DNA from: Mya arenaria
Taxonomy: Eukaryota; Mollusca; Bivalvia; Myida; Myidae
Length of the DNA: 64,000 nt
Assembly (NCBI RefSeq): GCF_026914265.1
Contig: NC_069138.1
Span: 55,810,085 to 55,874,084 of the forward strand
Direction of reading: 5' to 3'
The number at the start of each line of letters is the position of its first letter. Positions within the stretch are counted from its first letter, which is position 1. This document shows positions 38,601 through 61,717 of the stretch, piece after piece. The notes beneath the pieces were generated by a model. It worked only from the letters and a program-made list of their open reading frames with translations. It did no database searches and was not told the DNA's origin. The position numbers and the translations under genes were made by a program.

Positions 38601-41600
38601 ATTAACAAAGGGCAATAATTTTAAAAATAAGACAGCAAGAGTTACTGTTATTGTGCACTGCACTTGCCCTCCATGAGATCTATCTACATATGAAGTTTCA
38701 AGTTGATAACTCTTATATTCTACAAGATATGACCCGGACAAAACTTTAAGCATGAAAAATAACAAAGGGCAATAACTCAAAAAATATGGAAGCAAGAGTA
38801 ACAGTTCTTGTGCACTGCACTTGCCCTCAATTAGATCTATGTACATATGAAGTTTCAAGTTGATACCACTAATAGTTTAGGAGATATACCCCGGACAAGC
38901 GAAAATGGGACGCGGACGCCGCCGCCACCGCCGCCGCCGACAAAAGTAACCCCTATATGTCGTCTTTTCAGGCGACACAAAAAGCATTTCTTCACTTTAT
39001 AGGAGTCATTAGGATGACAATATTTTTAGATTTTAGTAATCTTATAAATCTTTGATGTACCGTATTCATTTCAGTTCTCATTGCTCAGAAATGGTCAACT
39101 GTCTAATGAGTAGAAATTCCATAAATCCTGTACACTCATCGTATTACCTACCTGCATACAGCAGTTGTCAATTATCATGTTTTCCAGTTTTATTGAGGGG
39201 TAAAATTTGGCCACCTCTTCACATGATTTCAGGAACATCCCGTCAGCCAGCTTCCTGAAAAAATAGAAATGAGATTTATAATGTCCAAACAGTTGATTTG
39301 TTTTTATGCATAGTCAGCTTTATACTTGAGCATCCACTTTAGGAGCGGGAGGTTGCAGGTTCAACCCTCGGCTGTGTTATACAAAACATTTTCAAATGCT
39401 GTTGGTAGCTCCCTTGCCAGGGAAATAGTGAATACAAGTAAGAATCTGTTATTGGATACATTGTTATGTCACAAAATAACTCAGCAATCTTAGTATGTCT
39501 GTTTCTTACAAGAGACATTCAATGTTATGAGGACAGAGAAGTCTTTATCTTTGTCTTTATCTACTATATGTTTAAACATCAACATCAGACTATTTCAAAA
39601 TCTTATGGTTTTTTTATAATTACAAGCCTTTTGCTACTATTTAAAGACATACAATTAGTTCACAGGAAATAGAAGTACATGTATATCATATTTATAATTG
39701 TCTTCAATTTACTGGATGAAAACAAGAAATAAACCAAATTAGTTTAACAATGTTTTTATGAAAATTAATACAAGGTCTTTAACTGATATGTAGCGAATGA
39801 TTTAAATGTGTATTAAGATCATGATCCAAATATACATGAACATGTACAACCTAGTCCATAACAAGCAAACTTACATGATGTTAGCTTTGTGTACTGCTGT
39901 CACCTTTTTCCTGTTGTGCCTCATCGCGTAATCGAAAGCAAACTTGGCGATGCGCTTTGACTTCACGGCGGTCACAATCTTCAGGGATTCTATAACTCCT
40001 GGGACACACTGTAAAACATAACATAATTACATGACTACTTTTACAAGATCACCATAAGACTGTTTTAAAAATTCAAGACTTGTCAATTAAAAAAAACTAT
40101 GTATTTCTGAAAATATACATTTCTTTTTTATATGGAAGAAATGTTTTCAAAATTAATTTCATTTATTCAGCAATAATATTGAACATTTTGAGCTATTAAA
40201 TAAGGTTGTCAGATATCTTTTAAAGACTAATTGTTAAGAGCAATACAAATAGATACCAGTTTGCTCATCTGCTTCTTTCTTTTTTTAATATGAATAACAC
40301 TTCGCTCATGTATTGGCCCTGCTACACAGTGAGTGTAGTACAATAAAACAATAATAAAGAGTTATGGATCTTGATAAATAAGGTTCATGGGAAGTTGTTC
40401 AAAGCAATTTTCAGTTATGTCTAAGGTTTAAATTTTTGCATGACGACCCTTACAACACCATCATGGTAATAACATATCTTTACCTTTTTCATGGAAAAAC
40501 AGACAAGTTAAAAAACCTTTGTCCATGAATGCCTTGAATTGTTTACAAGTTATGTACAAGGCTCAATATTTTGTACAATGACCCTGACAACAACATAAAA
40601 ACTTCATATGACAATACATTGATTTCTTTTGACAGACTACCGGTAGTTAAAAGAATTTTATTGAAAAATGCCTTGAAATGTTTTCAAGCTATTGACTAAT
40701 TGACAAGGTTCAATATTTTGCATAAAGACCCAGACTATTACACAGGGTTTCATGTGACAATACCGTACCTTGAAATTTTTTGTTGAAAAACAAACAAGCT
40801 AAAAATGTTAACATAGAAACCTCATGCTCCAGCGCACTGTATTCCCCCTCAGTCTGTTCTCGTATAATGACAAAGTCTAGGTTATTGTGCCGGGTGACGT
40901 ACCCTGGAAGGCTTCGTACCAGCACTACGTTGGCAAACAGATCAAGGTCACGTCTGGAAACATAGAAATGCTGGTAAATCTCATTATATGTTTACCTCAA
41001 GTGGTTTTAGCTTGAAAACAAAAACACTAATGATCACAATCTGTCTTTGGTACACCTATTTTTAACAAATTAATTTACTTCCTCAAAAGAGGCATATAAA
41101 AAATTCACATTCAAAGGGTTTTTCACCTTAAATATAGATAGTATTGGGAATTTTATTATCAATTATGAAGATTTTGAAATCTGCTCAAAGGGTGATTTAT
41201 CATCAAATATGTTTGTGCTTAGTTTACTAATTTAATATGCAAATAACAATAAGATTACCATGTTACATAGCTTTATGGCAATGTTTTCTCAAAGGAGGTT
41301 TAAACATTGCATTTGAAGGAAAAAAAACATTAAAATAAATTAGCCATGGAAGTCAATAGTTTTGCAGAAATCAAATTTGATGTGATGCATTATCTTCAAC
41401 ACATACCTGAGTTTCATGTTGAGGGTCTGCAGTTCTGTCCCCTGAAAGGTATGGGGAGAGGAGATAATGCCCTTTAAGCCAACTCCATTTCTCTTGAATG
41501 ACTCCAATACAGTCTCATAGCTGGCACTTTGGGATCGGTGCACCTCACTGAATTAAAAAAGAATGATGTAGTGAAGTTGTAATATGAAATCCAAGCTTTA

Positions 41601-44600
41601 AACAATGGTATGTATAAAAGTTGGTGTAATACAAACTGTATTTGCATTATTTGGCCAACAGATTTGAGCCAAAAAAGTAATATCATTGTCTGTGGGTTTC
41701 TTTTGATTCTGATGAAAAGAAATAGTGGAAATGTCTTACAATTTAAGTTCAGTATTGTATATGAAATCCACAACATTTACAGTTGCATAATTCAATATCA
41801 AAAGGATAATAGTATAGTTTATCTAGACAAAAAACTTATCATAAACTGGACACTGGAAAATAATTTTATAAGAACAAAGCTCCACCAAACCTGAGAAAAT
41901 GTTCTTCAAAGTTAATAGGCACCCCAGCAGTCTTGAACACCTGCTGTACACTGGCCATCATCTCTGGCCCCACCCCATCCCCAGGCACCAGGGTCACTGT
42001 GTGACGTCCAGCTGGCTTTGACACTGGCTTTGTGACTGCCTTAAATGTATATCAGTATTAGTTAGCAGACTTACTGGAGACCGTCTGTAAATGGCTTTCT
42101 TTTTTGGTCAGTTGCACAAACATCATTGTATGAGGTTAGCAGGCTTTGATACCAGTTCTGCAAATGCCTATAAATGTTCAGCATTAAAAGAGCATACAAG
42201 AATAATCTTACTCTGAATGTGATTTCAGGAGCTATATAATCATATAAATAAATTTTAATTTATAACAGGTTTAGTTTTCACATGCTTTTAAAGTGGCTGA
42301 GTTTTGACAAGCTATGTGGAAACAAATTCAGAGATTACCTTTTTAGACAGGCATTGCCTGCGACTCTGACTTTCACAACTGGACTCAATATTCCTTGGTA
42401 AATACATTTTAATTCCAATATTGATATAATTATTTTCAAATGGTTAAACTGAGTAACATCCATACCTGTTGCACCGATGAAAGGTGAATTTCATTCTTTA
42501 CAACCTGCTGCACCTAAAATATAAAAATGGAAGACGGACTTGTATTATCTACCGGGGAGGAATGACAGGTGAAATACTTTTCGGCCTTGCTTGAGATTTC
42601 AGATTGTTATTAGAGGTTTTTTTTGACATTTCTTCATTTATGGCAAGCACTAGTGTGAGAATTATGGCTTTTTCATTCAAAATTCTAATTCCATGACTGC
42701 TCACCTTATTTTCCTCAGCCTGTGCCAAATGTCATCAGTGATAAAAAAATAAAATGTTGACTTAATATAGTGTTTTAGCTAAAGCAGAATGGAAGGGCGG
42801 CCCGCCCTGCCCTTTTTTTACTCCGCCCTGTTGCCCCTTTTTACACGCCCTGTCATATTTTTCCCGCCCCCTTGCGCCCTTTTGGCCATTCAGATCGTTG
42901 TTTATCACAAAGTTACACCCTAAAAGTATTTCATTGGTCAATGTCGCTGTCTGATTAACGGTAATTCACGCTTATAATCAGGGTGCTAATTGCTGTTCAT
43001 TATGACACATTATTCCTTGTCTGAGACATCGAAGTTGTACCTCTAAATGTCGACCTTTGATGCCGATGTTGTTACAAATTTAATTAATTTAGCCATTTAA
43101 TCTCCTAATCACATAATAGGGTCGTATATAATCCAATTATCGAAACGTCCCATTTTAACCAATCAGAGAAGACACTGGTCAAATGATAAAAAGTTTGTAA
43201 AATTGCAATAGATAAAGCGAAGAATTAATGAAAAATGTTGTCAAGCATTAGTAAACAATTGATACTTGCAGTGTAAAAACAAGGCACACTTTTTAGAACA
43301 GTGTTTCGTTTGAAGCAGACGGTCATTGAAAAACAGACGGTGGCGCTAAGAAAACCAAATATTTGACTTCATGACCAATATTTGATAGTTTTTGTGTTGA
43401 ATGATCATAATGGATATTTTTGTTATCTCAAATCTTTTTTATTTGCTTTATATAGCGTTTACTTGTGGTATTTTCCTCATTTGTTCAATGTACAAAAGTA
43501 GAAGATTCGGCGAGTCACCGCCATTTTGTCAGAACATTTTTCGGAGTTTATTTCTCAATTTTCTAGTTCTATTATTAAGTATTAGTGAGTTTTTCATGAA
43601 GGATAGAGACTTTAAATGTCATTTTGTTTTAAAATGTCAGCATATTGAAATTTATTTAACCAAAGACAAGTAAACAACAGCAAAGCTGAATGTGACATTC
43701 GTACCCTATCCTGATCGTACCAAAACAAGATTCGCCCTCTGCACTTAAATGTTTTTAACAGCTCATATTTAAGGCCATTCTGATTTTTTCTAATGGTATT
43801 TTTTTTTAATGTCTTTGTTTTTATTTTCGACGCTTTTTGGAGGTAAACTTTACATTGCAAAAAGGAGACTCAAGTCAAGTACACTTTTGATAGGCCAAAA
43901 CCCCCCACTTTTTTTAACATTCCATCTAGTTAAAGCAATCAAATTAAATCTGAATTTAAAGTTTTGTGGCATGGCACAATATTTATTTCAAGTTTTACAA
44001 TAAGTATCCTTAAAGTCTCCCCACTTCTCCCTAATTTGACTGGCTAGAGAAGTGGCTTCTCCCCCAAAAAACCGCCTTGTGAGAGCCCTGGTGACAACAA
44101 CCCAAGATGGTAAAGAAAGTGTCTGAAGTGAAAATGAACAAGAAAGAATTAAGAGTATTCTGTTGGGATATTACTACAATGTGTGCATGAACATGCATGT
44201 ACTTTGATAAGGTACATGGTCGTTTTACAATTATACAAAGCTAATATTGTACGCATTGTTTTCCCATTCAAGAAAACACCATGCCCCTATTTGGGCCCAC
44301 CCTGCCCTTTTTTTGGCCCACCCTGCTTTGGCCCACCCTGCCCTTTTTAATTCCTGGCTAAAACACTACTTAATAACCAAACATTGACAAATGAAATTGT
44401 ATTAATAAATATGTTAATTATGTATGAAAAAAGTTCGACTAAAAAAACAAGTAAAGTTTACAACTGTCAAATCAGGACAAACATAAAACAGTGGAAATCC
44501 TACTGATCCAATTTGGCTCAACAATATACAAAACTTAAACTTTCCCCACCCACCTTCCATTTATCTAATGTCAACCATAATATTATATAAGTAAACTCGA

Positions 44601-44747
44601 ACTCATAGAAATTACCCCAAACATTTTTAATAATCTCATATAACTCTATTATTAAATTTATATGTGATAAATTAGCATAAAAAGTACCAGTGAACACAAT
44701 TTAGCAGACTTCTTAAGAACATTCGTTCTTGACATGGAGGCTGCCAT
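35649..44747 (-). CDS. IDH3B: Isocitrate dehydrogenase [NAD] subunit beta, mitochondrial (IDH3B)
   Basis: Non-catalytic subunit of the NAD-dependent isocitrate dehydrogenase of the TCA cycle, which turns isocitrate into 2-oxoglutarate in the mitochondrial matrix. Ten minus-strand exons: 44747-44688, 42513-42466, 42039-41891, 41547-41407, 40953-40821, 40008-39875, 39254-39152, 37106-36960, 36602-36447 and 35723-35649. The phase is consistent and gives 381 residues, the usual length. The N-terminus [20 protein letters not shown] is basic and lacks acidic residues, as in mitochondrial presequences. Family segments seen: [97 protein letters not shown]. The [16 protein letters not shown] context and the C-terminus VNSLQ fit the beta rather than the gamma or alpha subunit. 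It is head-to-head with the AhpD-like gene. Large introns hold several transposons. Confidence 0.95.
36695..36785 (-). repeat. Decayed intronic copy of part of IDH3B exon 9
   Basis: Plus-strand 'gttggctatattcttgcct' and the preceding 'ccaggaagtaacac' match exon 36447-36602 ('ccagcaagtaacac', then 'gttggctatattcttgcct'). The copy lies about 95 bp upstream of that exon in gene direction and is clearly diverged. It covers the 5' half of the exon and reaches toward its acceptor. Confidence 0.7.
37150..37265 (+). mobile_element. tRNA-derived SINE fragment
   Basis: 'gatagtggatgagagtgg' resembles an A box and 'gtgggtttgatccccacc' forms a T-arm with a B box. A tRNA-unrelated part follows. It lies in an IDH3B intron. 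Confidence 0.6.
37485..38988. mobile_element. Array-type non-autonomous element with 'tgtcgcctga' termini
   Basis: The left end 'gtgtcgcctga' and the right end 'tcaggcgacac' are inverted repeats. In between lie eight tandem units of about 155 bp sharing 'gtgcactgcacttgccctc', 'aagtttcaagttgatacc', 'agatatgccccggacaaaac' and 'aacaaagggcaataact'. A 'gacgccgccgccac' stretch comes before the right end. It fills most of the IDH3B intron between 37106 and 39152. Confidence 0.75.
39316..39425 (+). mobile_element. tRNA-derived SINE fragment
   Basis: 'ggaggttgcaggttcaaccc' carries a B box, followed by 'tcggctgtgtta'. The upstream half is a poor tRNA match. Intronic in IDH3B. Confidence 0.5.
42768..44368. 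mobile_element. 1.6-kb non-autonomous DNA transposon with CTTAATA duplication
   Basis: The left end 'tagtgttttagctaaagc' and the right end 'ttcctggctaaaacacta' are inverted repeats. CTTAATA flanks both sides directly (42761-42767 and 44369-44375). Next to both ends are pyrimidine-rich 'ccgccctgccctttttt'-type blocks. No transposase is seen. The size of the duplication and the termini suggest a hAT-like group, but this is inference. It sits in the first intron of IDH3B. Confidence 0.7.
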
Positions 44748-44937
44748 CTTGGATACTGGGAGAAGTAAGAATATTAAAATATAAAATTAATCGTCTCAAT
44801 TTTGAGAAAGTGCTTTATTTTTTCCCCAAAATAGTTAAAAAATCTTTTTTTAAGATATCACTGATCATTAATAATAAAAATACTGATGATTTTCTGTACA
44901 ATATATATTTTTTAATAACTTATCCCTGTAGAGCAAA
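44748..44937. promoter_or_regulatory. Short bidirectional promoter region, IDH3B / AhpD-like gene
   Basis: 190 bp separate the two start codons, which face apart, so both promoters must overlap here or within 5' UTRs. The sequence is AT-rich with no clear TATA box or CpG richness that I could single out. Confidence 0.6.
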
Positions 44938-47900
44938 ATGTCACTACAAAGGCACTTGATTAATTCGGTCCAAAAGGTGAGATTAAAGAAGAATGGAAAG
45001 TAAATTTTGTAATTTGGGGTTGTTTCTAAAGATGATTTATCAAAATCGTTCAACATACATGAATGACATTGATTATTTACGATTATCTTAACTCAGTTGC
45101 TGACCCTGGCAAACATACAGTAGGGGTTTCTCCAGATGTGTATTACCTTATACGTTACAATAGGTCCCCCATGCCTTCTAATGTGGAGTTAATGTGGCAG
45201 ATTTCTCAGGAACTGGGCATGCAGGGTTGGCTGGACTGTTTTTGTTCTTTAGGTGTCTGACGCAACGTGACCCTCAACGCACCTCGATCTGACGTAATTG
45301 CTCCACCCCCTCTCTAATTTTCATAATATTCAGCCATCCATATAGTTCTTCGCAAACACGCCATAATCGGCCATTTTAAGCAAGTTCAGGCAGCATCGCA
45401 ACTTTTAGAACATACATACATGTAGTATCAGCAGATTATACTGCGTCAGCAGATTATCTTGCTTGGCAAACTCAAAAAAGAAATGATGACACATTATATA
45501 ATCTAAGGACACTCTGCGAGCACTAATTGTATCGTCTGGATCTGTTTAAGTTTTGAATTCCCTTTAAATTTGAAAAAGAGTACCTTTTTATTTTGACAGT
45601 TTACATCTTTAAATAGTATTAAGTACCAGAAAATTGTTCGTTGAAGTTTATTTAGTGTAAACATCCAAAAATATAACAGCCAAATTTTAAGTAAGGAAGT
45701 GTAGATCCACAGCTCAAATCGATTGATGATACAGAACCCAAATCTATATACTATATTCCCAGTGTGATGCCCGGTTAAAAGATAGAAAAGAAATTGGTTA
45801 CCAGTAGTTCATTCTTTTATAAAATATATTTATTTTTGCAGGCATACAGAAGACTGCCTTTGTTGCCTATGGTATCCAAACAAAATAGGCCAGTCCACAA
45901 TACTGCTACCTTGACCAGTGATGAATTCAGCAGGTTTCCTGTGCCACCCACAGACAGTCTTCCAGAAGATGTGAAAGCTAGAATTTCAGAAGTCACAGAA
46001 AAGGTCAGTTTATATTATTATTATTATTATTATTTTAGAGCATGAGAATGTAGTTAATACTTAAAGCTGCACTCTCACAGATATACCATTTTTACATCTT
46101 TTTTATTTTTTGTCTTGGAAAGAGCAAATTTATGCGTAAATATCTGCAAACCAATGATATAAGATTGCTGACAAAAAATCAAATCATAGATTTTCATATT
46201 TCCGTTCGAAAATTAATGTTTTATGACTTAAATTGTACTAACGGTTTAAGAAAAATGCATAAAACATCAATTTTTATGCCCCCGAAGGTGGGCATATTAA
46301 AATCGCACCGTCTGTCCGTCCGTCCGTCCCTCCATCCGTCCGTCCGGCTCTGTAACTTTCCCTTGTGTGGACAGATTTTAAAATTACTTGCCACATGTGT
46401 TCCACATACCAAGACGACGTGTGGCGTGCAAGACTCGTGTCCCTACCTCAAAGGTCAAGGTCACACTTAGTGTTTATTCACAATGGAGTGCTGCATATAA
46501 GGACATAGAGTATAGGTTGTCGTGTCCGGGCTGTAACTTTCTCTTGTATGGACAGATTTTAAAATAACTTGCCACATGTGTTCCACATACCAGGACGACG
46601 TGTCGCCTGCAAGACCCGTGTCCCTACCTCAAAGGTCAAGGTCACACTTAGTGTTTATTCACAATGGAGTGCTGCATATAAGGACATAGAGTATAGGTTG
46701 TCGTGTCCGGGCTGTAACTTTCCCTTGTATGGACAGATTTTAAAATAACTTGCCACATGTGTTCCACATACCAAGACGATGTGTCGCGTGCAAAACCCAT
46801 GTCCCTACCTCAAAGGTCAAGGTCACACTTAGTGTTTATTCACAATGGAGTGCTGCATATAAGGACATAGAGTGTAGGTTGTCGTGTCCGGGCTGTAACT
46901 TTCTCTTGTATGGACAGATTTTAAAATAACTTGCTACATGTGTTCCACATACCAAGACGACATGTCGCGTGCAAGACCCGTGTCCCTACCTCAAAGGTCA
47001 AGGTCACACTTAGTGTTTATTTACAATGGAGTGCTGCATATAAGGACATAGAGTGTAGGTTGTCGTGTCTGGGCTGTAACTTTCTCTTGTATGGACAGAT
47101 TTTAAAATAACTTGCTACATGTGTTCCACATACCAAGACGACGTGTCGCGTGCAAGACCCGTGTCCCTACCTCAAAGGTCAAGGTCACACTTAGTCTTTA
47201 TTTACAATGTAGTGCTGCATATAAGGACATAGAGTATAGGTTGTCATGTCCGGGCTGTAACTTTCCCTTGTATGGACAGATTTTAAAATAACTTGCCACA
47301 TGTGTTCCACATACCAAGACGATGTGTCGCGTGCAAGACCCGTGTCCCTACCTTAAAGGTCAAGGTCACACTTAGTGTTTATTCACAATGGAGTGCTGCA
47401 TATAAGGACATAAGAGTATAGGTTGTCGTGTCCGGGCTGTAACTTTCCCTTGTATGGACAGATTTTAAAATAACTTGCCACATGTGTTCCACATACCAAG
47501 ACGACGTGTCGCGTGCAAGACCCGTGTCCCTACCTCAAAGGTCAAGGTCACACTTAGTGTTTATTCACAATGGAGTGCTGCATACAAGGACATAGAGTAT
47601 AGGTTGTCGTGTCCGGGCTGTAACTTTCTCTTGTATGGACAGATTTTAAAATAACTAGCCAAATGTGTTCCACATACCAAGACGACGTGTCGTGTGCAAG
47701 ACCCATGTCCCTACCTCTAAGGTGAAAGATACACTAAGTGTTTATTCACAATGGAGTGCTGCATATAAGGACATAGAGTATAGGTTGTCGTGTCCGGGCT
47801 GTAACTTTCCCTTGTATGGACAGATTTTAAAATAACTTGCCACATGTGTTCCACATACCAAGGGAATTCTGAATATAAGGACAGAACAGTGTAGGTTGTC

Positions 47901-50900
47901 AAGTATAGGTGGTATTTTTTTATGTTCAGAGGCAATTTAAAATAACTTGCCATATGTATTTGACACGTAAAGGCAAGATCAACTTTTCATGTACTGACCT
48001 TGTTCGTAGGTCAATGTCACATTCGGGGGCATTCGTCACATACTGTGACAGCTCTTGTTGAACTTAAATTTGTAGTAATGTGAATTAGACTATAGGTTGA
48101 TATTACTTATGGTTTGCATTGTCTAAATGTATTCAGTTGTACTGTGATGCTTGTCGAGAATAAATGTGTGTAAAGCTTATGAAATCTTAAATTATTACAA
48201 AATATAAAAATCTGCGATCTATTTTTTTGTCAGCAGTCTTATATAACTGGTTTCCATGGATTTTCCCCAAAAATGGCTCGTTCCAAGACAAAAAAAAAAA
48301 AAGTTGTCAAAACATTCAATTTGTGAGAGAGCAGCTTTTAAGATTGATCACATTTTTTCTTGCATTTATGCAGTATGAATGCAGAAGTGCTCACAAGCAA
48401 GTTCCATGAAGTGCACTAGCCTTATCGCTAATTGCTGCAGTTGGATTCTTTGATGTAAGAATTTGTTCGACAAGCTATAAATGTCAACATGTTTTTTATT
48501 TTCTTTCAGTCAGGGTTCACCCCGAATGTATTTTCCACCCTTTCATATCGACCTGCAGAGTTTAGGGCTTTCTTCAACTACTATGATATTGTTATGGAAG
48601 ACAGAGGTATTGAACAACAGGTTTGAGGTTTATTCATTTTTTGTAGTTAATAAGTCTTTAGATTTAAAAGTTACTTCATGAAGAATACTTATATTTATTC
48701 ATTATTACATTCTACATTAAACAAATCAAGCTTTAAAGGTATTGTTTCTTGTGGCATCTTAGAATTCATGCAAATAATGGTTTTAAAGAGGGATGGGAAC
48801 AAGATCATTATTTTCAGCTTAAACAATATTATTATGTTTCATTTTGGCTTAAAGGGACTTGCTCATGTTTTGTTAAATGCACTATCATTAACACGAAATA
48901 GAATCTGGAAAATTATTAGGAGTGTCAAAAATAAGATGCTGACTGCTGGATCCCTTTAACAAATGTTGATATCTGCTCAAAAATTGTCTTTGAATAACGT
49001 AACTAGCAATTCAGTAAATTTTTGTAGTGTGATTGATTGATGGATATTATTATAAGATGTATTAGATAAAGGTTAAAATACACATCAGCTATTGTGTAAG
49101 TCCTTGTGACTTTTTTCTTGACTGTACAGGCAGTGGTTAAGAATTTTTGTTAATACTTAAATTGTTGTTGTTTTCTGCAATTTCAGTATCAAAGAGTACT
49201 ATTTATAAAATAAGCTTTCAGATGCATTGGTGGGAAAATTTTAGTCCAAAAATCATGAGCAGGTCCCTTTAAGGTTGTCAGAAATAAGTATAAAAAATGA
49301 AGACAGCAGCATAAAAAGGAATTTATATTGTTCTTTTACATGATAACAAGTTTTGTTGATAGGAAATATATATTGAAAACACAATTTAATGAGTATACAT
49401 GCACGTTTTTACTAAACCATTTTTATAATTTCACAGGAAGCCTGACAATGGCAGACAAAGAAATGATAGTGGTTGTAACCTCGGCAGAAAACAAATGTCT
49501 ATATTGTATCATTGCTCACAGTGCCCTGCATAGAATCTACTCCAAACAGCCTGAACTGGCAGATCAGGTGAGAAATTAATGGCTGTACTGTGTCATTGCT
49601 CACAGCACACTGCACATTATATACTCTACTATACTCAACTAGCAGATCAGGTGACTTGAGTGAGGAATCAAATGTCTGTATTGAATCATTTGCCCACAGT
49701 GCCCTTCATAGAATCTACTCCAAACAGCCTGAAATGGCAAATCAGGTGAGGAATCAAATGTCTGTATTGAATCATTGCTCACAGTGCCCTGCATAGAATA
49801 TACTCCAAACAGCCTGAATTGGCAAAGCAGGTGAGGAATCAAATGTCTGTATTGAATCATTGCTCACAGCGCCCTGCATAGAATCTACTCCAAACAGCCT
49901 GAATTGGCAGATCAGGTGAGGAATCAAATGTCTGTATTGAATCATTGCTCACTGTGAGCCTTGCATAGAATCTACTCCAAACAGCCTGAACTAGCAGATC
50001 AGGTGAGGAATCAAATGACTGTATCACTGAATCACTGCTCGCATGCCCTGCATAGAATATACTCCAAACAGCCTGAACTGGCAAATCAGTGGCAGATCAG
50101 GTGAGGAATCAGATGTCTGTATTGAATCATTGCTCACTGTGCGCCCTGCATAGAATCTACTCCAAACAGCCTGAACTGGCAGATCAGGTGAGGAATCAAA
50201 TGTCTCTATTGAATCATTTGCCCACAGTGCCCTGCATAGAATCTACTCCAAACAGCCTGAACGGGCAGATCAGGTGAGGAACCAAATGTCTCTATTGAAT
50301 CATTGCTCACAGTGCTCTACATAGAATCTACTCCAAACAGCCTGAATTGGCAGGTCAGGTGAGGATACACATGTATGTACTGTATCATCATCATAGCGCC
50401 CTGCATAGAATACCATGGTACACTCCAAACAGCTACAACTGAGGAAACAAATGTTTGAACTGCATAATATGCTCACAGCACACTGCACAGAATAAACTCC
50501 AATTATCCGCAGCTGACAGATTAGGTATGGCCTAAACCAAATGGGTATGGCGTAAGATTTACTCATCCTTTTTTTATCAGTTTCTGTATACAAAAAATGA
50601 ACAAAAATTCAAAGAAAGTATAAATTTCTTAAGAATTCAGGAAAATATGCTATATAGTAAAATTCTATTAGAATATTTAATATTATACTATTAGTTCCTA
50701 ACAAATACCAAAAATAAGAACTTTCAATGGCATTATTTTTGCATATTTGCTGAAATTCTTAGCTAAAATTTTATTTTTAAAATGCTGGATGAAACAATGA
50801 TGAAAAACACACAGTAAATGCTTTGTAAGTATGAGATGGTCATCCTTGATCAATACTTCTTCCTATAACTGTTCTTGTTTGATGCTCTTTCAGCTTTCTG

Positions 50901-51851
50901 CAAACTGGCGTACAGCAGATATAGACAATAGACAGAGGGCTATTCTAGAGTTTGCCTTAGATCTGTGCCACTGTAGACCGCTCACAGAGGTATACTTAGT
51001 CTATTTTATGGAATGCCCGGACTCTGTTTCAAAAAGATATCCAAGTCGTAAACCTGACGCTGCATAGGAGCGCTCAGATACACCGGTAAAGTTAAAGGCA
51101 GAATCTATGCAATAGATGTCCTAGCAATAATTTTATTGAAGCATAGTTAACACCAAAAACGGGGTTATGCCTGGAAATTTACAATCTTTATTGAAAAATG
51201 CCCTGTGTTGCAGTTTTACATTTGACTTTATTGTCAGCCTTCCTGTGGTTCAAATTATTTATCAATTATTATTTTTGATTATTATTAAGTTTCTACGTTT
51301 TGAGATTTAAGTCTGTTTTCATGTCCAAATTAAATATTCACGCACATAGGACATGGTTTTAAAGATGATATAAGATTGATAAACCATGTGGTGTTTTTCT
51401 GAAAAACTACAATTAACTGTCATTTTATATCCTTTTAGGCAAATGATAAAAAGAACAGTTGTTTGTTTCACTGTAAGATCACAATAAATTTCACTTAGTA
51501 AATGTTTCACTCATGAAATATATAGCTTTTGGTGCTCCCGTTGTGATATATATTGAAACAAACAGTACAGGAATTGTTGCGCCACTGTTGAAATATAATT
51601 TTCGGTGCTCACACGGTGAAATATATTACTATCTTACACTGAAACAAACAAAAATTTTATTATCGTCTATGTTTTTACTTCAGGAACACTTTACAAAGCT
51701 GGAGGCTCATGGACTTACCCAAGACGATGCCTGGGACATCGGCTCAGTTGTAGGGCTATTTGCTTTGTCAAACAGAATGGCGTTTCTTACAAACATGAAA
51801 CCAAATAAAGAGTTTTACCTGATGGGCAGAGTGAAAAAAGAGAAAAAATGA
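44938..51851 (+). CDS. AhpD-like (carboxymuconolactone decarboxylase family) protein, probably mitochondrial
   Basis: Exons 44938-44976, 45842-46003, 48510-48606, 49437-49567, 50894-50989 and 51684-51851; 230 residues, phase consistent. The N-terminus MSLQRHLINSVQKAYRRL is basic and amphipathic, like a mitochondrial presequence. The core has SAENKCLYCIIAH with Cys120, Cys123 and His127, the CxxC-x3-H site of alkylhydroperoxidase D-type proteins, preceded by Glu117. These family members reduce peroxides or serve as thiol relay partners; 'peroxidase-related' is family knowledge and the substrate is unknown. The helical remainder (AILEFALDLCHCRPLTEEHF, WDIGSVVGLFALSNRMAFLT) fits the all-helical fold. 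It ends in a lysine-rich tail. AATAAA at 52406 is a likely poly(A) signal. It is head-to-head with IDH3B. An array derived from its own fourth exon occupies the next intron. Confidence 0.88.
46061..48341. mobile_element. TTAA-flanked MITE split by a nested array element
   Basis: The left end 'ttaaagctgcactctcacag' (46061) and the right end 'ttgtgagagagcagctttta' (ending with TTAA at 48338-48341) are inverted repeats with TTAA at both outer edges, as for piggyBac-type insertion. The MITE itself is about 500 bp; the rest is the element at 46275-48059 inserted into it. Intron 2 of the AhpD-like gene. Confidence 0.7.
46275..48059. mobile_element. Array-type element with 181-bp tandem units (nine copies)
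   Basis: Begins 'tatgcccccgaaggtgggca', then a 'ccgtccgtccgtcc' run. Nine units follow, starting near 46350, 46531, 46712, 46893, 47074, 47255, 47437, 47618 and 47799. It ends 'cacatactgtgacagctctt' + 'gtt'. Units carry 'ctgtaactttcccttgtatg', 'acatgtgttccacatacc' and 'tcaaaggtcaaggtcacac'. The later units are diverged. Nested in the MITE at 46061-48341. Confidence 0.85.
48849..49272. mobile_element. TTAA-flanked MITE, about 420 bp
   Basis: The left end 'ttaaagggacttgctcatg' and the right end 'catgagcaggtccctttaa' are near-perfect inverted repeats with TTAA at each edge. No coding content. It lies in the intron before exon 49437-49567 of the AhpD-like gene. Confidence 0.75.
49575..50525 (+). 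repeat. Tandem array (~85-bp units) derived from exon 4 of the AhpD-like gene
   Basis: About nine units with 'caaacagcct' at 49721, 49806, 49891, 49978, 50065, 50163, 50249 and 50334, plus two decayed ones. Each copies the exon's 3' half (cattgctcacagtgccctgc; agaatctactccaaacagcc) with its GTGAGG donor and a few intron bases. The real exon is at 49437-49567. The protein reading frame shifts from unit to unit, so they do not form an extended coding sequence. Confidence 0.9.
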
Positions 51852-54010
51852 TTGTAGAGAGTTTGCCAATTGTCATTTGATTTTATTGTTCAGGATTATG
51901 CGTAGACTCAATAGTGTCTAATCAGGTTTTAACTACATTTACATGTATATTATGATTGATCATTATATATAGGATACATATTTATATATATGAATTATAT
52001 ACTTCAATGTTATAATCAGACTAACTTGAAATGCCTTTAAGTCATTTTGTGTGGGAGCGTGTCAAGATATGGAACAATTTTTTACTTATTTGGCTTTTGA
52101 AAAGCCTGTTAGAGCTTGCTTGTTGGTTTTGATTCCTGTACTTTTAGGTCTTGGTTAAAATTTTAGGCTACTTGGCCTGACCCTGTAGTTGAAACTGTTG
52201 TATTGAAAATTTTGTCTTGTTTTTTTCATGACTTTGTTAGTAAATGCAAGTTCTCTGATCAGTTTCTTAAGAACTCGCACATTGAATGTTCCTGCCTAAC
52301 AGAATGAGGCTCCTTACAAGGATGTATTCATGATTCCAATTACACGTCAACGAGAGTGATAAATGTTATGTTGTAGAGACTTGTTTCAAAATTGTTGTAC
52401 GGTAAAATAAACAAGTTTAAACTATTTTATTACAAGTATTTTGGTGTTTGTATTGGTATTTAATTGTTAATGTACATAACACATGCTCAGTCATGTTTAA
52501 TCAAGCAAAATTGTTGTAAATACTCATGGACTATATCTGTAGGAAGTTAATCACTCCCTCTTTTAATCCAACTAGGTACAGTTTTGAAGTATAAATAAAA
52601 TACAAAACATATTTATTTTTAAACATTTATAAGTAGGAATCTAAGTAATGAAATAAAACAAGCAAGGAAAACAAAGAGATCTATTTTTTCCTTCTTTAAC
52701 ATGATCCTCTTCTTTTTTAGTCCAGGTTGTTAACCTATATTTACCAATGAGGAATTTTGCCAGGTTTTAATTGAAATCAGAAGGACTATTGAATGTTCAA
52801 ATAAAAAATAGTTTAATGTTATATAGATCAGGGAAACAATCCTTACATTAATATGTAAAAAAATGTTATGATATATGTTGATGATATGATTATCTCCAAA
52901 CCAAATTTCTTTAACCATCCACATGTCCAGGTAGCATGTTGGGGTATTATTCATAGCAGTGATATATCTTTGGGTATGTTATAAATTGATGTTAATTATA
53001 GTGTTTTCACTACAATTGATGTTGATTAAGATATCTTGTGATACTTCAGAAAGAATTATTGTGATTGTGTATTTTACGAAAATATCAGATTTTTTTAATC
53101 TATAGTTACATGGAAATAAATTATATTTTTCCTTCATTGTATGTGTTCAATTAAAGAAGTGTGTTGAAAAGTGCGCTATTCTTATCCTGCTTATTTACAA
53201 AAAAATGTATACTCTTAAGAGCCTTCTCATAGTATTGTGCTGGTCCTTCAATTATCATATTTACTGTCTGTTTAAAATCAAAGGTTGAATAAGGTAACAT
53301 TTAAAGTTAATGTCACACTGTAGAAAAGTATTACTTTGAAAGTAAGGGTATTAATAAGTTAAAATTCAGCTATTTTAACTGACAATCTTATTAAGAACCA
53401 TGGGCCGTACTTATTTGTGCAGGGAAGAACAGGGGGCACACCCTCAGACCAAGAGTCAGATACGCTAACCATGTGACCATAGCTACCATTGAACGCAACT
53501 TCCACATATCTTATTGCATCTTTTTTAACTTTGATCATAAGACTGGGTTATGTCTTTATTGGGTCTCCTTAAAATAGCACTGCAAGCGAATACTGGTAGG
53601 TACGCTACTTTTCACAGTTGATAAAGAGTCACTATTCAGCAACTGTTTTCTGCTTTTACTGTCACTACTTAAACAAGTAAGAAGTTTCTTGTGAATATCT
53701 TGAATGTTTTTTGAGTTATATGCCTATAGCTTAGGTAAGATATTTTGCAGGCCTTTTTCATGACATAAAGGGGCACTGCCTGACAAAACCAGAATTAGTT
53801 CAATGATCAATTGGATCCTACAGAGTTATGGCCCTTGATCTTTTGTATCTCTGCACATGGACAGGTGTATATGCTCTGCATCATGTCTCCCTTGTTTACC
53901 AATATAAAAACAAAACTAAAGTAATAAATCATGATACATTTATTAATCTTTACAATCATCAATGTATAAGAAGTTCATTACAAAAAAACAACAATATAAA
54001 ACAACGCCCT
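51852..54010. other. 3' region between AhpD-like gene and DR1
   Basis: Convergent genes. The AhpD-like 3' UTR probably ends shortly after AATAAA at 52406-52411. A weak tRNA-like inverted segment (complement of 'tggttagcgtatctgac') lies near 53450. No further gene seen. Confidence 0.5.
53939..53944 (-). other. Poly(A) signal AATAAA of DR1
   Basis: TTTATT on the plus strand lies 67 bp beyond the DR1 stop. Confidence 0.6.
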
Positions 54011-55515
54011 TCAAGAATAGTCATCATCATCCTCTGTCCCATCCCCATGTTGTGAGGCTGTATTAACTGGCTGGTGTTGCTGCATTACTTGCTGCAGTTG
54101 TTGCCACTCTTGTTGCTCCTTCTGGGCTTGCTCTTGTCGGGCCTGGGAGCAAATAAATCATACAATGGTAAAATTAGGCTAAAACTTGTTAGGCAAGAAA
54201 AAATGGCAAGTTGACATGTTATGTATACAATACATGTACTTACTATGCTGAACAAATGCAAAGGTCATACAAACCACACAATGTTGCTGGTATTTTCACA
54301 GACAAAATCTGATTTTAAACCAGTGTGGAGTTTAAGCACCTGGTGACCCAGATTTCAGATTTCAAGCACCTTAGTGCCTGATCACTAAAAGTTTCAAAAG
54401 GCCTGCAGAAAGCCCTGACACATAACCAACAAGTGGATGCTCTGTTTTTATCAATTAAAGGGCAAAATATGACAACTTTTACAGCCAGAGTTATGAGCCT
54501 TTTTACAAATGTGCATTATGTCACTGGTGATATGTACACTAAGTTTCATGTGAAAAATTTAATTCATCAACAGGGTTATACTCACTAACAATATTTTAAG
54601 ACAATCAATGGTCATAACTGGACAATGATTAATGCGCATTGCGGCATATGCATGTTGTTAACAAGTTTTATGGTCATATCTTGAAAAAAGATTCAGTTAT
54701 ATTTAATTTTAATTTTAATAATTTTGAACACTATTGAGTTAAAGTCAAAGTGTTTGCAATCCAACAAGCCTACAATACTTTTTTCTTGACTAGGTAAACA
54801 TTGCAAACTATTGATTGACACCATGAAATGACATAACTAAGGTACTTTATTTGTCAAGAAATACCTGAGCAAAGAGCTCCTGTTGTTGCCTGACCAGTTC
54901 CTCCTCAGGAATGCCTAGGTTTTCAAGGCGCGAGCTTCCCCTCCGTCTCTTGGCGGCCACAGCCTTGGCTTCCTTCAACACCTCTGTAGCATCCTCCTTG
55001 TATGCGCCAAATCCTAGACTGTCGAGGGCTAAGAGAGAGATCAGTCCTTTTTTAGTGGTACACATGAGAGATAGTGAACTAAGTATTTAAAGGATACCAT
55101 TCTTTAATATGAAATCTGTAACAGCCAAGGCCAGGGACTGCATAAAGTCAAGTTTAGTGAGAACCCTGATTTAATAAAGTTTAATGTTTATTTAAATTTC
55201 TGCAATGATCTGTGTTATGTTCGTGCAATTAAATCTTATAATATCATAAATATGTTAAGTATAAACAAAATCTACATCACAGAGCAAAAAAGCTGTACCT
55301 GCAAGAACATGTTCTGGTGATATCGTTTTCTTGAGCTGTTTATTGCAGATATCATTTGCTTCTGTAGACACAAGGTGGATAAACTCTGTACAGCAGTTGA
55401 GAATTAGTTCTCTTGAGTCGTTCGCCACTCGAACATTGGGTATTACTTCCTTAATCATCTTGTTCAAGGAAGCCCGAGGAATACTAAGATCATCGTCATC
55501 TCGATTGTCTCCCAT
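54011..55515 (-). CDS. DR1: Protein Dr1 (negative cofactor 2 beta)
   Basis: Histone-fold transcription regulator that pairs with DRAP1 (NC2-alpha) and binds TBP on promoter DNA, blocking TFIIA/TFIIB; also part of ATAC in animals (family knowledge). Minus-strand exons 55515-55299, 55028-54865 and 54142-54011; 170 residues, phase consistent, close to the human 176. Seen: DDDDLSIPRASLNKMIKE and VRVANDSRELILNCCTEF, then KKTISPEHVLAALDSLGFG, forming the histone fold over about residues 7-85. Then RLENLGIPEEELVRQQQELF, almost identical to human. The glutamine-rich tail (QEQAQKEQQEWQQLQQ) ends in acidic EDDDDYS. The start is the first ATG, matching the family N-terminus. An upstream in-frame extension has no similarity. 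Confidence 0.96.
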
Positions 55516-56704
55516 GATGTTTAATTGTGATCTCACATGTATATAATGGGAATATTGTGAATACAACAAGGGCTTGGTAAAACGTCAACTGTATCTAGCA
55601 TCTACAGCATTGTCAGTGTGTGAAGAAAAATTAATCTGAAAATGAAAATCATTTTTTCATGAATCGAAATGGACCAATCAACTTTGTAGAATAAAACAAA
55701 TTTCATTTCATAAACAATGATGTTTAAGAATATAGATTAATTGCCAAACTAGCCATAATTGATAATGATCAGTACAGTAAATGGGTTGTCAAGTGCATAT
55801 TTATTGTAATATTTTGACATTTATGAACAAAATTTGTTGCAAGGATTCGAACCTAGGATAGTTCCGGTCAAAAATAGATGTTGTGAAAGTAAGATGTGTA
55901 AAATTAAACACAGAAGGACCAAAAAATTATTTTGCATTAGCGATAATTTTGGATAAACAGTGTTCAGAATAGCGGTGTTTAAATGTATGTGGAAATATAG
56001 TTATTTCTATAAGAATAAGTTGTTGTAACGTTATTATGTCTCTTTACTTCCACAGACACCAGAATGTATGATGCAGAACCAGATTTTTGGGCTGTTTATC
56101 ACGTCATGGGATATAAGAATAAGACTAAGAGCTGTGAGAAAGTCAGCTGTGGATGTTTAAAATAAAAGACGATTAATATAGCGTTTCAGCCTTATTGTAA
56201 TATCAATATCAAAAACAAAAATGTCATTATATTTGAAAATAAATGCAGTATACATACTTTTATTCTCTTAAGCACATTGAGGATACGCACATCTTGTATT
56301 TTTTCATTTTGTAATACATGGCAAATTTATATATAAGGGCAGTAACTACGATTGCAACAGGCTATCGGTTACGATTAACTAACTTGCTTGTCTATTGAAA
56401 ATCTTTACCTTCATCACAGTCTGCTGACAATTTGAGTGCCAATATTCCCTATGGACTCATCAGTAAGAATGAGTGGATTTGTACATATACCTCCCTTTGC
56501 ACAAAACTCGAGTGTCATTAGTGTTGTGATCAGGTGTGTATCACATGGTCCGGGAGGTGGGGGCGCTGCGAACAGAGTCAATATGCATCTATTAGTCGAT
56601 GGGCCGTACTTACAAATATGACTCATTCTGGTTATCCGGGGTTTCAAGACTTTTCCTAAAATATTTGTTTATGCGTACATGTACCTGCAGTTATGTTTAC
56701 CATT

Positions 56705-56805
56705 CCTTGGTGTAGTCATCGACGAAGCTCCGCCGAGCTGGGATCGAACCGCTACGCAACTTACCGATCGGCCGTCGCCATCCAAACGCTAAGCCCGGTT
56801 TAATA
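56705..56805 (-). mobile_element. tRNA-like SINE head
   Basis: On the minus strand 'gcttagcgtttggatgg' resembles an A box and 'gtagcggttcgatcccagct' holds a canonical B box GGTTCGATCCC. The arms do not make a full cloverleaf, so this is more likely SINE-derived than a working tRNA. Confidence 0.45.
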
Positions 56806-57278
56806 TTGGTGATCCTCACGCAAAACAAAGAAATTTTGTCAATGGAAAAACAACAAGGATAAGGTTTAATAAGCCGTAACTGTGTTTAAGTTCATTTCTC
56901 GGTCACCAGAGAGTGAGGTAATGTGACTTACTCAAGCTTTTTGATAATAATAAGAAACTCCTGGCTAATATTAGCAGACGAGTTGTAATAATCCAAAGGT
57001 AATACAGGGACAAGCCCAGTAGCCTAATATGTAATCAATACATGTCTAGTCCAAAAAACACTTACAAACAGCAGACACATGGAAGACCCCCCCCCCCCCA
57101 AAAAAAAAAGAAAAAAGAAGAAAAAAAGAGCATTTATCGCAATTAAAAAATGCAACAAAACCGAAAGTTACTTTTAGTATAATCTATATTTAGCGCACAT
57201 GTACAACGTCACTCCGAAATTTGCATATCACGTGTCTTACTGAATACCTAATGATTTAATTGCATTTTTAAACTAAGA

Positions 57279-57653
57279 CGTTTTGGTTTTGAATTGTTTT
57301 CCCGTTTATGCATCTGAATACACTTATTTTATCATTATTTTACTCTTTGATATTGAAATTGCAGAAAAATATTGTTATAGTATAAAAAAGTATGTTGGTT
57401 TTAGTGGGGTGTGAACCCACGCCGGTAAAGTCAAGAAAAAGGTAACCAAAGTGAACCAACACCAAACGTTTTGGTTTTGAATTGTTTTCCCGTTAATGCA
57501 TCTGAATACACTTAATTTATCATTATTTTACTCTTTGATATTGAAATTGCAGAAAAATATTGTTATAGTATAAAAAAAAGTATGTTGGTTTTAGTGGGGT
57601 GTGAACCCACGCCGGTAAAGTCAAGAAAAAGGTAACCAAAGTGAACCAACACG
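57279..57653. repeat. 187-bp direct tandem duplication
   Basis: Two nearly identical copies, each starting 'acgttttggttttgaattgt' (57279 and 57466). Each ends with 'ggtaaccaaagtgaaccaac'. Each copy contains a T-arm-like 'gtggggtgtgaacccacgcc' on the plus strand. Confidence 0.85.
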
Positions 57654-59009
57654 AAAACCATAAGGCCAACACGCCTTCCTTAAACGCAACGGATATTTTG
57701 ACATGTTAACCATACATTGATAACATCACGTGACAATGTTAATCAACCAATTTCTCAACAACAAAGCTGTTGACGCTTGTATGAAAATAGTTGTCTTCAA
57801 AAACGATAATTGAGCAAATATCAACATTTGCTGAAGGGTTCCATTTTTTGGTATCTTAGATTTGCCACACATAATTTCTTCATGTTTACACAAAAAAGTG
57901 CTTTTTACAAAAACATGAGCGAGAACCAATCTGCGATTTTTCACTAAATAACATTTGTATTTATCATTCGAAAAGACTTGCATGACATTTACTTTAGAAA
58001 CAGAAGCTTAATTTCTTTATGTGAAATTCCATTTGAAAATATTCAGTATTTCTCTAGTTATTTCTCCAGACTATTCCTGCAACTGCCCAGGTACTGTGTG
58101 CAAAGCGCTATGCTCCACACACTTATCTAACTCATTAACACATAGCGATTCAGTGGTCCAGTTTGGATTTTCGTTGGTGTCCCCCCCCCCCACCCACCTC
58201 CCAAAAAAATAATTAAATAAATAATATAATAATAATATATTTACTAAACAATCGTGTGGACTCTGGAATCTACCAGACAATATATGGGACTCTATTATAG
58301 TTATATACTCACTTTTTTCTCTAATTGTTTAAGCATTTAACAAATTAAAAACTAATTAAAAGTGCATATACTTAAATAACAACGCAAAGAACCAGAGAAA
58401 CAAACAACAACATTAATTTAATTCAACTTGTTTAATAGAATGAACTTGTTTGAAATTATTAAATACTAATGAAAATAGTTCTCGTTTATATACATTGGTA
58501 ATTGTGAGGTAATAAATTAAGCTATCTATAAAGTTACCATCGAATAGGAAACCATAATAAATGAAATCTTTACTGTCATGCCGTGCATATATCAACTAAA
58601 CATACACTTAACTATATCAAAATAATATAGCAACATGGTATGTCTATGTCAAAGTATTGTCTAGAACATGTTACGACCACCAAACGCAACAGCGAAATGA
58701 GCAACACACTTTAAACAACATTTATCAACTAACAGTTTTACTACCGTAGCTTCAACAACGTATATACGAGTAAATACCTAGACTAAAGAATAATGTCCAA
58801 AATCCTAAAGTTCACAATATATATTCACTGATCATTCTGGTAGTTTGAATGTCCACATAATTAAATGAAACATTGAACACACCATATGATCACTATCTAA
58901 ATCTAACAAAAATTTCAGAAAATATAATACTCACAAAATGGTTCAATTAAATCCATGATTGTAGAAATGTCCCTAGCACTAAAAAAACTTTTACAGATTT
59001 ATTTTTTTT

Positions 59010-60430
59010 ACCCAAGGACCAATGATTAGAGAAATTTGCCATTATATGAATAATAAACACATCAAGGACGTTACCTCAAATACACACTTGGGTGTCACAC
59101 ACCCGAGTTCATCGTCCTGGCATGAACATATTCAGTATGTCAAACAAAAGGCATGGAAGAGAATACATTAATGAGGTCTAACAAATTCCTCTTCGACGGA
59201 AGATCATTACATTTATTTTATACAACCTTTATCAGACCCTTATTCGAGTACGCGGATGTCGCCTGGTACAATATCGCGCATGCGGAAGAAGAACTTGAGA
59301 AAATTCAACACGAGGCCGCTAGAATGATTTCTGATGCAACACGTCTTGTGCCCTTAAACAATCTATATCCGAAACTGCCCTAGAACCACTTAAGGACAGA
59401 TCACGCACACAAAAGCTCACCATATTTTACTAGATGTTTCATTCAATGACCCCGCTCTACTCGTCGTCCATGATACCCTCCCGTGTCAGAGATACAACCA
59501 CTTTTTACTTTCGGAACTCGGGTAATATCCGCAACTTGCCATGCAGATCAAAGCTGTTCAAAGCTGTTGTCCACCTCTTTTTCTTCCTTCTACTATATAT
59601 CTTCGTAGAATGCCCTTCATGACGAAACTCGAACAGCCCCGTACCTTCCAGCTTTCAAACGCAATCTGAACAAAACCAATGCAATTGTTCCTCAGTTTTA
59701 TTACGTTGGATATTGGAAGACCAACCAATTGGAAGAGTGTACACCAAGCAATGTCATGCTCTTTCAACGAGCATTATATAGCAGCCGGTCCATCTTGCCA
59801 GTGTCAGACACATACCACTTTTTCTTTCTCTGTCCACTTTACCGACAACACGAAAGCAAGAATACTTGACAAGCTACATACCCCAAGACCGATCACATTT
59901 CAACTCCTTTTCTCAGGCTCTAAAGATGCAAATGACCAAAGAAACTCGATGTGACCAAACATGTATCCAAGTGACTAACATATTTTTACTCATCATCAAC
60001 AAAATTTGAACAGATTTGACATCTACCACCTACTTCTTGACATGTCATTTCTCTACTTTCCCAATCAGTCGTATTCGTCCGCTTAACATATCGTATTTGA
60101 AACCCTGTTACACGTCTATCATCTGCAATTTACTCTTATGCATAACTCATTACAATTTCCATTACGTACGATTCATAATGATTTACACTATATAAACACT
60201 TTAATACACGTACATAGCTTACACCAAATATTTTTTACGCTTTAAAAACAGCTTATTAAAACAACAGAAACGAGACATTGCATAAACTTTCTTCTCAGTT
60301 CTGTCATAACATTTCGAACAACATTATGCATTCTCATGAACGTAAGCTTACGTTTTTACTTGCACTATTTTGATTATGCTCAATGTTTGTATCATTTATC
60401 ATGTATTGTTTATCTAAATAAATACTGTTT
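59010..60430 (+). mobile_element. Decayed LINE (non-LTR retrotransposon), 3' part of reverse-transcriptase ORF plus tail
   Basis: 59153-59383 reads FLFDGRSLHLFYTTFIRPLF, then EYADVAWYN and KIQHEAARMISDATRLV, the conserved region after the RT catalytic core in LINE ORF2. Matching pieces continue in other frames to about 60000: LTIFYKMFHSMTPLY, YFRNSGNIRNLPCRSKLFK, and a C-terminal stretch with 'ARILDKLHTPRPITFQLL'. The upstream piece 59060-59150 reads HLGVT-like. The catalytic motif itself is not present. Frames change several times, so the copy is 5'-truncated and dead. The following 60010-60430 is AT-rich 3' tail, with AATAAA near 60417. Confidence 0.75.
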
Positions 60431-60995
60431 ATACCAAATGAGCTGCTCTGGTCAAAAGCTCCTACACAACTGTCCCCAAACTGGTTTTGCAACAGGTGGA
60501 CTATTTATTATAAAAGGAGATAATTGTTTCAAGTTAAAATTCATGTATTACTTATGACTCAACACCTCATTGAGCTACATAAAAATATGTACTTTCGATT
60601 TTCAAGTATGTAAACATATGTTTGCACAAATGTTTGAAACACTCGCTTTGTAAGTATTATGCGATTGAGATCACATGCGTGAGATTTTATAACAAAACAA
60701 TAAACACTGTTCTACAATTATATCTACTTAGTGTAAAATAATGTGAAACAAACGGATGTTACTAAAATTGTTGAACATGTATTCGTTATGAAGCTATATC
60801 AATGTAGATCTGTATAATATTCCTTGAAAAAAGAAAATTAAGAGTAAACAAATGAAAGCATGCATTAAGTGTTGAAAGCATGTGATCTTCAAAGGAATGA
60901 AGGACAATTATAGCTTGATGTTAAACTCGTGTGACATTTTACAAATAGTGATTTGGCCCATTTTAAAGCATTAATAAACGGAGCGGTGACACTAC
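60431..60995. other. Non-coding stretch, nothing recognised
   Basis: AT-rich; no similarity, repeat or exon seen. Confidence 0.4.
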
Positions 60996-60999
60996 TGGC

Positions 61000-61645
61000 A
61001 AAGCTTGTACGGGTTGTTGTTCATATGAATACATATTTATAAACTCGACTGACGATAAAGCAAAGATTCTCCAGAGAGTTGTCTACATAGGTATGAACTG
61101 ACCAATGACACTATAGCGAAGATTACAAAGAGGTCCGTCCTAAATGTAGCAAGCTTCTCCAGGGTGTTGTCCGTATAGGCGTGAACTGGACAGTGACACT
61201 AAAGCAAAGATTTTCCACAGGTTTGTCTGTATAGTGTAAACTGAACAGTGACAAAATAGCAAAGATTCTCAAGAAAGTTGTCTACATAGGTATAAACTGA
61301 CCAATGACACTATAGCGAAGATTCCAAAGAGATGCGTCCTAAATATAGCAAGCTTCTCCAGGATGTTGTCCGTATATGCGTGAACTGGACAGTGACGATA
61401 TAGCAAATATTCTCCAGAGAGTTGTCTGTATAGTGTGACCGAAACAGTGACAACAAAGTGAACTGAACAGTGAAATTTAGCAAAGATTCTCAAGACATTT
61501 GTCTGTAACGGCGTGAACTAAACAGTGACACTTAAACAAAAATTCTCAAGAGAGTTGTCCGTACTGGCGTGGACTAAACAGTGATATTATCTCCGTATCA
61601 TTGTGAACCAATGTTGGCGCCAGTACAAACTAATGTGAACTTATG
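61000..61645. repeat. Degenerate ~52-bp tandem repeat upstream of the otopetrin-like gene
   Basis: About eleven imperfect units share 'gtgaactgaacagtgacact', 'atagcaaagattctcc' and 'agagagttgtccgtatag'. A larger-order repeat is visible, with 'aagcttctccaggrtgttgt' at about 61150 and 61350. It ends about 75 bp before the ATG at 61718. Confidence 0.75.
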
Positions 61646-61717
61646 AGCATAAAGTGAAAAATGACAATTTAGCAAAAAAACTTCTACGAACGTTTTTATG
61701 TATACTACCAATCGATC

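Follow-up and report, generated by a model that had tools for sequence, protein, structure and literature searches.

A coding exon tail and its splice donor repeated as a minisatellite in an intron of an AhpD-like gene of Mya arenaria

The intron behind the CLYC-encoding exon of an AhpD-like gene in the bivalve Mya arenaria contains a tandem array in which the end of that exon is repeated together with its splice donor. The array lies in a 64,000-nt stretch of forward-strand DNA (NC_069138.1, positions 55,810,085 to 55,874,084; hereafter the window), and all positions below are those of the window unless a contig is named. We think it rather probable that this is a VNTR-like minisatellite made from a coding exon end, with a core that was re-seeded from the exon, and that the first donor dominates in splicing, the array being at most a mild brake.

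The gene model covers five exons on the + strand, from 45842 to the stop. These exons are located at 45842-46003 (AYRRLPLL to VTEK), 48510-48606 (SGFTPNVF to MEDRG), 49437-49567 (131 nt, ending in CLYCIIAHSALHRIYSKQPELADQ), 50894-50989 (LSANWRT to PLTE, phase 0) and 51684-51851 (EHFTKLEA to KKEKK, with the stop), and their in-phase join encodes 217 residues followed by a stop codon. The third exon is the source of the array, and its frame and splice phases fit those of the neighbouring exons. It is preceded by an intron of 830 nt and followed by the array-bearing intron of 1,326 nt (49568-50893, limits from the gene model). The 217-residue product matched the peroxidase-related protein 2prr with an E value of 2.4e-65, ungapped at the source-exon junction, and Pfam CMD with 8.6e-8. 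Its C-terminal 127 residues scored 116 bits against TIGR01926 (AhpD-like peroxidase-related enzyme), above the cut-off of 81.8, and this score together with the match to 2prr bears out the AhpD-like identity that an earlier note on this DNA had proposed. The same 127-residue part alone matched no Pfam family at E 0.001. The source exon encodes CLYC, which we take to be the CxxC of the AhpD-like family and the motif that defines it.

TRF called the array as an 85-bp repeat of 10.5 copies at 49492-50411 (score 1131), and cutting at the donors resolved it into the exon tail followed by 11 units (49573-50529). Each unit consists of 80 nt of exon, the CLYC codons included, plus GTGAG. The exonic part corresponds to 49488-49567 (+ strand), the final 80 nt of the source exon, and thus to 61% of the 131-nt exon, with only 5 nt contributed by the intron. 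The array starts directly after the true donor and fills about 72% of the 1,326-nt intron. The earlier note had described an intronic satellite of about nine 85-bp copies of the 3' part of the exon with its donor. A tandem exon-derived array with an 85-bp period is indeed present in the intron, and its origin from the exon is confirmed by the match of the units to the exon tail plus GTGAG. The count, however, is 11 units, the repeated segment spans 80 nt of exon and 5 nt of intron rather than just HSALHRIYSKQPELADQ, and minisatellite or VNTR is a better name than satellite for this tandem repeat.

The 11 units, all on the + strand, fall into a core and its edges. U1 (49573-49664) is diverged, differing from the exon at 21 of 83 sites, and carries the weaker donor CAGGTGACT. 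The core units U2-U9 (49665-50363) each differ from the exon at 6-8 sites and each carry CAG/GTGAGG (the slash marks the exon-intron boundary). U10 (50364-50443) and U11 (50444-50529) are decayed, with 15 of 72 and 23 of 85 sites off the exon; U11 has TAG/GTATGG in the place of the donor.

The true donor was inferred from the gene model as the end of the aligned exon, and reads CAG/GTGAGA, with the exon ending at 49567 and the GT at 49568-49569 (+ strand). The core donors of U2-U9 have their GT at 49746, 49831, 49916, 50003, 50101, 50188, 50274 and 50359 on the same strand. With an approximate scoring matrix, the core donors reached 7.31 bits and the true donor 6.89 bits, compared with 4.44 bits for the donor of U1 and 3.4 bits for an extra CAGGTCAGG inside U9; no donor of at least 3 bits by this matrix was reported for U10 and U11. 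The pairing energy with the end of U1 RNA was -11.6 for the core donors and -11.1 for the true donor. Extra donors are therefore real, as the earlier note had stated, though its nine strong ones come down to eight strong ones (CAG/GTGAGG in 8 of 11 units) and a weak one (CAGGTGACT in 1 of 11). By the same matrix, the two strands of the 64-kb window together hold 14 sites that score at least as high as the true donor minus 0.5 bit; nine of these, counting the true donor itself, fall on the + strand of the 1.09-kb array stretch. This clustering of donors is not a product of chance.

We searched the genome (1,216,080,610 bases in 18 contigs, the window being C17:55810085-55874084) for further copies. 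All 20 exon-tail matches fell in two places, namely the window array and a second array on the minus strand at C17:54926579-54927687, 0.93 Mb away, and no third place was found in 1.216 Gb, repeat counts being lower bounds. The earlier note had raised two prospects, an assembly with a single exon copy and a dispersed repeat that the exon resembles by chance. The assembly holds the array, and a dispersed repeat or satellite family was ruled out by the finding of only two places in the genome. No phage match was obtained.

The second array comprises the exon tail and 12 units, nine of them core units, which is one core unit more than in the window. The order of units is common to both copies, and the U1 of the second copy has a 16-nt deletion. 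Within the window, U2 joins a left part resembling U2 of the second copy to a right part resembling U3 or U4 of that copy, as expected from exchange out of register. The source exon is identical between the two copies (0 of 131 differences), and the five exons together differ at 3 of 654 sites. An inverted near-copy of the window surrounds the second array, with 95 mismatches in 9,101 columns for window 30381-39458, 90 in 10,930 for 39525-50411, 39 in 3,998 for 49660-53648 and 66 in 10,409 for 53646-64000; across these long aligned blocks, 0.6-1.0% of columns differ by substitution. Because two near-identical copies hold 11 and 12 units, the length of the array has changed while the surrounding sequence changed by about 1%. 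The earlier note had suggested that copy number may vary among individuals; variation in length is seen here between two assembled copies, be they alleles or paralogues.

The inverted block reaches at least window 20000-24000 (97%). In sampled long matches, window 20000-64000 was about 97-98.7% identical, gaps included, to the minus strand of C17 at 54.91-54.957 Mb. For window 100-4100, scoring 40 of 5,925 candidates gave no match close to the mirror place; this segment was 99-100% identical to C1:25508284-25515534 in three pieces and is perhaps a young mobile element insertion. Mirror samples at 55.74 and 56.28 Mb gave no match, the sample at 55.60 Mb gave two pieces (608 bases at 95% and 452 at 89%), and the sample at 56.00 Mb gave several pieces of up to 1,232 bases at 90-92%. 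The Mya arenaria assembly was made by a diploid method with haplotig purging, in a study that also drew on RNA-seq reads from six tissues (PMC10663159). The second copy could represent either an allele left unpurged or a paralogue recently formed by segmental duplication, and both the 0.6-1.0% of substitutions and the block limits are compatible with either.

The units record more than one episode in the history of the array. Against the exon, the core consensus shows differences at 4 of 85 sites, compared with 21-27% of sites in the edge units, and this divergence between edge and core was significant for U1, U10 and U11 (Fisher P 0.0002, 0.003 and 0.0001). In a tree of these very short sequences, in which 3 of 17 inner branches were well supported, one branch parted the exon and the edge units from all 17 core units of the two copies (support 84/86), and U1 grouped with U11 (94/89). 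The pattern points to two or more rounds of seeding from the exon, an argument that presumes one neutral rate for all units and draws on very short sequences. As homogenisation within the core would not hold it near the exon, the founding of the core from the exon probably postdates that of the edge units.

The second CxxC codon is TGA in seven of the eight core units of the window, U6 having a 3-nt insert before its TGA, and it is TGT or TGC in U1, U10 and U11. With TGA at the second cysteine, core units cannot have replaced the exon unbroken. A reading of this TGA as selenocysteine was rejected: the exon, U1, U10 and U11 carry TGT or TGC there, read-through from the exon meets a stop ahead of the first core unit, and the window gave no Rfam match at gathering level. 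The 127-residue C-terminal part matched the NCBIfam '(seleno)protein' family NF041238 weakly, below its cut-off.

The array may have arisen by tandem duplication of 80 nt of exon with GTGAG, perhaps between short direct repeats; AGAAA is present at 49486 and at 49571. Its length would then have grown and shrunk through out-of-register exchanges, and one or more subsequent events would have inserted new exon sequence inside the array, from which core U2-U9 derives. If the exon of one chromatid crossed over with a mid-array unit of the other, such sequence could end up between U1 and U10. Differences between the 17 core units and the exon were uneven over codon positions 1, 2 and 3 (23/442, 44/457 and 59/457), with shared changes counted many times and one unit, U6, misaligned; such unevenness is not predicted by pure neutral drift of the core. 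Variants within the window core numbered 5, 6 and 10 at the three positions, too few to judge and again with U6 misaligned. A wider proposal can be framed, in which exchange ran one way, the exon re-seeding the array at least twice and reverse exchange, with TGA at the CxxC, being weeded out, and in which the array, with the second exon-tail array in the neighbouring IQ-motif gene, belongs to a genome-wide class of constructs with many equal donors in equal exon context, haplotypes differing in the length of these constructs and host-gene output being adjusted by it. Taken as a whole, we regard this proposal as speculative and rather unlikely.

For splicing, we infer that the first donor is the true one and dominant, being most likely the source of nearly all mature mRNA, and that the eight near-equal downstream donors would see low-level use. 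First-donor dominance is expected from an exon defined across itself (131 nt between introns of 830 and 1,326 nt), and in the treatment of competing donors in PMC9225289, exon definition means that cross-exon proximity gives the upstream one of two equal donors the advantage. Each use of an array donor would give an mRNA with an immediate stop, for which nonsense-mediated decay is expected. Read-through past the true donor adds VRN before a stop at 49577, and in the second copy a stop follows after 11 residues. In both copies this stop precedes the first array donor, so that any array donor would give the same short product within a copy and exon extension would not yield a longer enzyme. Segments running from CACAG to the donor are exactly 46 nt long in five core units here and in six of the second copy, and all 11 have an in-frame stop at codon 4. 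Both kinds of mis-splicing modelled here are predicted to be unproductive, and since use of an array donor or of a 46-nt unit leads to a stop, leakage should only cost dosage. For the ABCA7 VNTR, retention of a single unit is given as 2 ± 1% in the tissues tested, constant across length (PMC5954066), and by analogy we expect leakage of the same order here. The earlier note had raised alternative donor use, exon extension or slow splicing; the effect of the array on splicing is probably mild, and the array would then act as at most a mild, length-dependent brake on the enzyme.

Several points run counter to this preferred explanation. The older Reed and Maniatis cross-intron rule, as told in PMC9225289, would select the downstream donor; the scores of the core donors slightly exceed that of the true donor (7.31 versus 6.89 bits); 17 of 17 core donors are intact in the two copies, which could mean that they are kept; and the codon-position differences over the 17 core units (23/442, 44/457, 59/457) are uneven. 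A stronger, working brake, in which the donors compete strongly, unit number sets the amount of intact AhpD-like mRNA and selection keeps the donors, would accommodate eight donors that are slightly better than the true one by both the matrix score and U1 RNA pairing. It would also fit the survival of the donor in every core unit (8 of 8 and 9 of 9), set against loss of the acceptor-like CACAG from 3 of 8 and 3 of 9, and the correlation reported for ABCA7, where exon 19 skipping rises and expression falls with VNTR length (PMC5954066). However, 65 of the 85 core columns show no variation in the window, as do 66 of 85 in the second copy, and the probability that all eight donor columns are invariant by chance is 0.105, 0.119 and, for both together, 0.08. 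Selection on the 17 core donors of the two copies is thus not significant (P 0.08-0.12). As exon definition predicts that the first donor wins (PMC9225289) and single-unit retention in ABCA7 is given as unchanged with length (PMC5954066), we hold a working brake of this kind to be unlikely.

The exact 46-nt segments, five here and six in the second copy, each with its stop at codon 4, could alternatively serve as poison exons, units being spliced in at times from TTGCTCACAG-like acceptors to the CAGGTGAGG donor. Pyrimidines before the five acceptors here (12-14 of 20) are close to those before the five modelled acceptors of the gene (12-15 of 20), but 46 nt is short for an exon and the AG is lost in 3 of 8 core units here, which makes us judge this use decidedly unlikely. 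A pure bystander, without any splicing effect, seems very improbable, because the units carry real exon context and not the octamer alone, and because the similar IFI6 and ABCA7 arrays do give alternative junctions in the published accounts. Such a bystander would nevertheless suit five modelled exons that are open in the window copy and changed at 3 of 654 sites in the other, donors without significant selection, and donor-like octamers that are common in the tandem arrays of this genome, at 1.3 times (CAGGTGAG) and 2.0 times (CAGGTAAG) the reversed control. That the array is an error of assembly, or a dispersed satellite with a chance likeness to the exon, is scarcely credible. The second copy has the opposite orientation on the contig that also carries the window, a placement which an unpurged haplotig might show, yet unit order and private changes are common to the two assembled copies, the search of 1.216 Gb yielded no third place, repeat counts being lower bounds, and homology to bacterial enzymes fixes the exon.

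A genome census of three CAGGTGAG spaced 70-100 bp apart returned 1,278 and 491 matches on the two strands versus 986 and 414 for the reversed pattern, and the corresponding numbers for CAGGTAAG were 682 and 1,024 versus 561 and 292; overlapping matches count many times in these figures, which cover donor-like arrays of any origin. At least 12 separate clusters were distinguished by eye among the CAGGTGAG matches listed, which cover contig C1 and part of C2. Donor-like arrays are common in this genome, and the AhpD-like array is unexceptional in that respect.

A second case of an exon tail copied with its donor lies 21 kb from the AhpD-like array. An IQ-like exon at 28142-28269 (+ strand, IVQKFMRGHLSRKK; donor GT at 28270), whose IQ motif is weak (18.2 bits, below the cut-off of 20.3), is followed on the same strand by two intronic copies of its tail and donor, at 28398-28464 (94% over 67 nt) and 28572-28638 (96% over 67 nt). 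The copies carry AAA/GTGAGT at a spacing of 174 bp, and TRF called 174 bp x 2.4 at 28359-28767. By eye, a decayed third copy was seen at about 28744-28806, which the search did not return. Window 28140-28830 is present in the inverted copy at 95%. Other tandem arrays in the window include a 46-bp repeat at 29967-30435 (10.2 copies, 100% matches), which is a very young array, a 181-bp array at 46342-47862 (8.4 copies, 95% matches) in another intron of the AhpD-like gene, and a 68-bp array at 11712-13115 (20.6 copies, 95% matches).

Minisatellites that repeat splice donors are already known from a few human genes (IFI6, ABCA7 and boundary repeats). The unit of the IFI6 (6-16) minisatellite is about 12 bp. 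Like the clam array, that minisatellite supplies multiple splice donors, and two of its downstream units are used, giving three mRNA species (Turri et al. 1995, as told in PMC2572611 and PMC4526556); the IFI6 unit is short, whereas the clam unit is 85 bp and mostly coding exon, and extension into it meets a stop. In intron 18 of ABCA7, too, the array begins at the exon's own donor, the exon-18 donor being the first two bases of the VNTR, and splicing also uses a cryptic donor located one unit further downstream, which results in a frameshift (PMC5954066). The ABCA7 array is very variable in length, at about 12 to 427 units, with a unit of 25 bp of intron, compared with 80 of 85 bp of exon in the clam (PMC5954066). 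Internal tandem repeats of human segmental duplicates likewise include exon-intron boundary minisatellites that vary between near-identical copies, among which 27 intron modifications were reported (PMC2812944). Use of the donors was shown for IFI6, effects were measured for ABCA7, and the changed intron structure of the human duplicates has transcript support according to the same accounts, whereas the clam array is described at the level of the genome. The intron gain by tandem duplication described for potato RdRp also involved a duplicated segment bearing an exon-intron junction (PMC4974935), but the clam gene model keeps one intron with the array inside it. No new intron is evident between the duplicates in that model, and the modelled protein is unaltered.

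A narrow literature search for such junction repeats in bivalves found no paper. The clam array is distinctive in the large share of coding exon in its unit, in the indication that the exon seeded it more than once and in the second example 21 kb away. The choice of the spliceosome among equal donors has been studied with built genes that carry duplicated sites. In this intron, nine near-equal donors (the true one plus eight copies) stand naturally in a row, each after nearly the same 80 nt of exon, and the row exists in two near-identical copies that differ by one unit. The array also suggests that a single exon can give rise to intronic repeats more than once.
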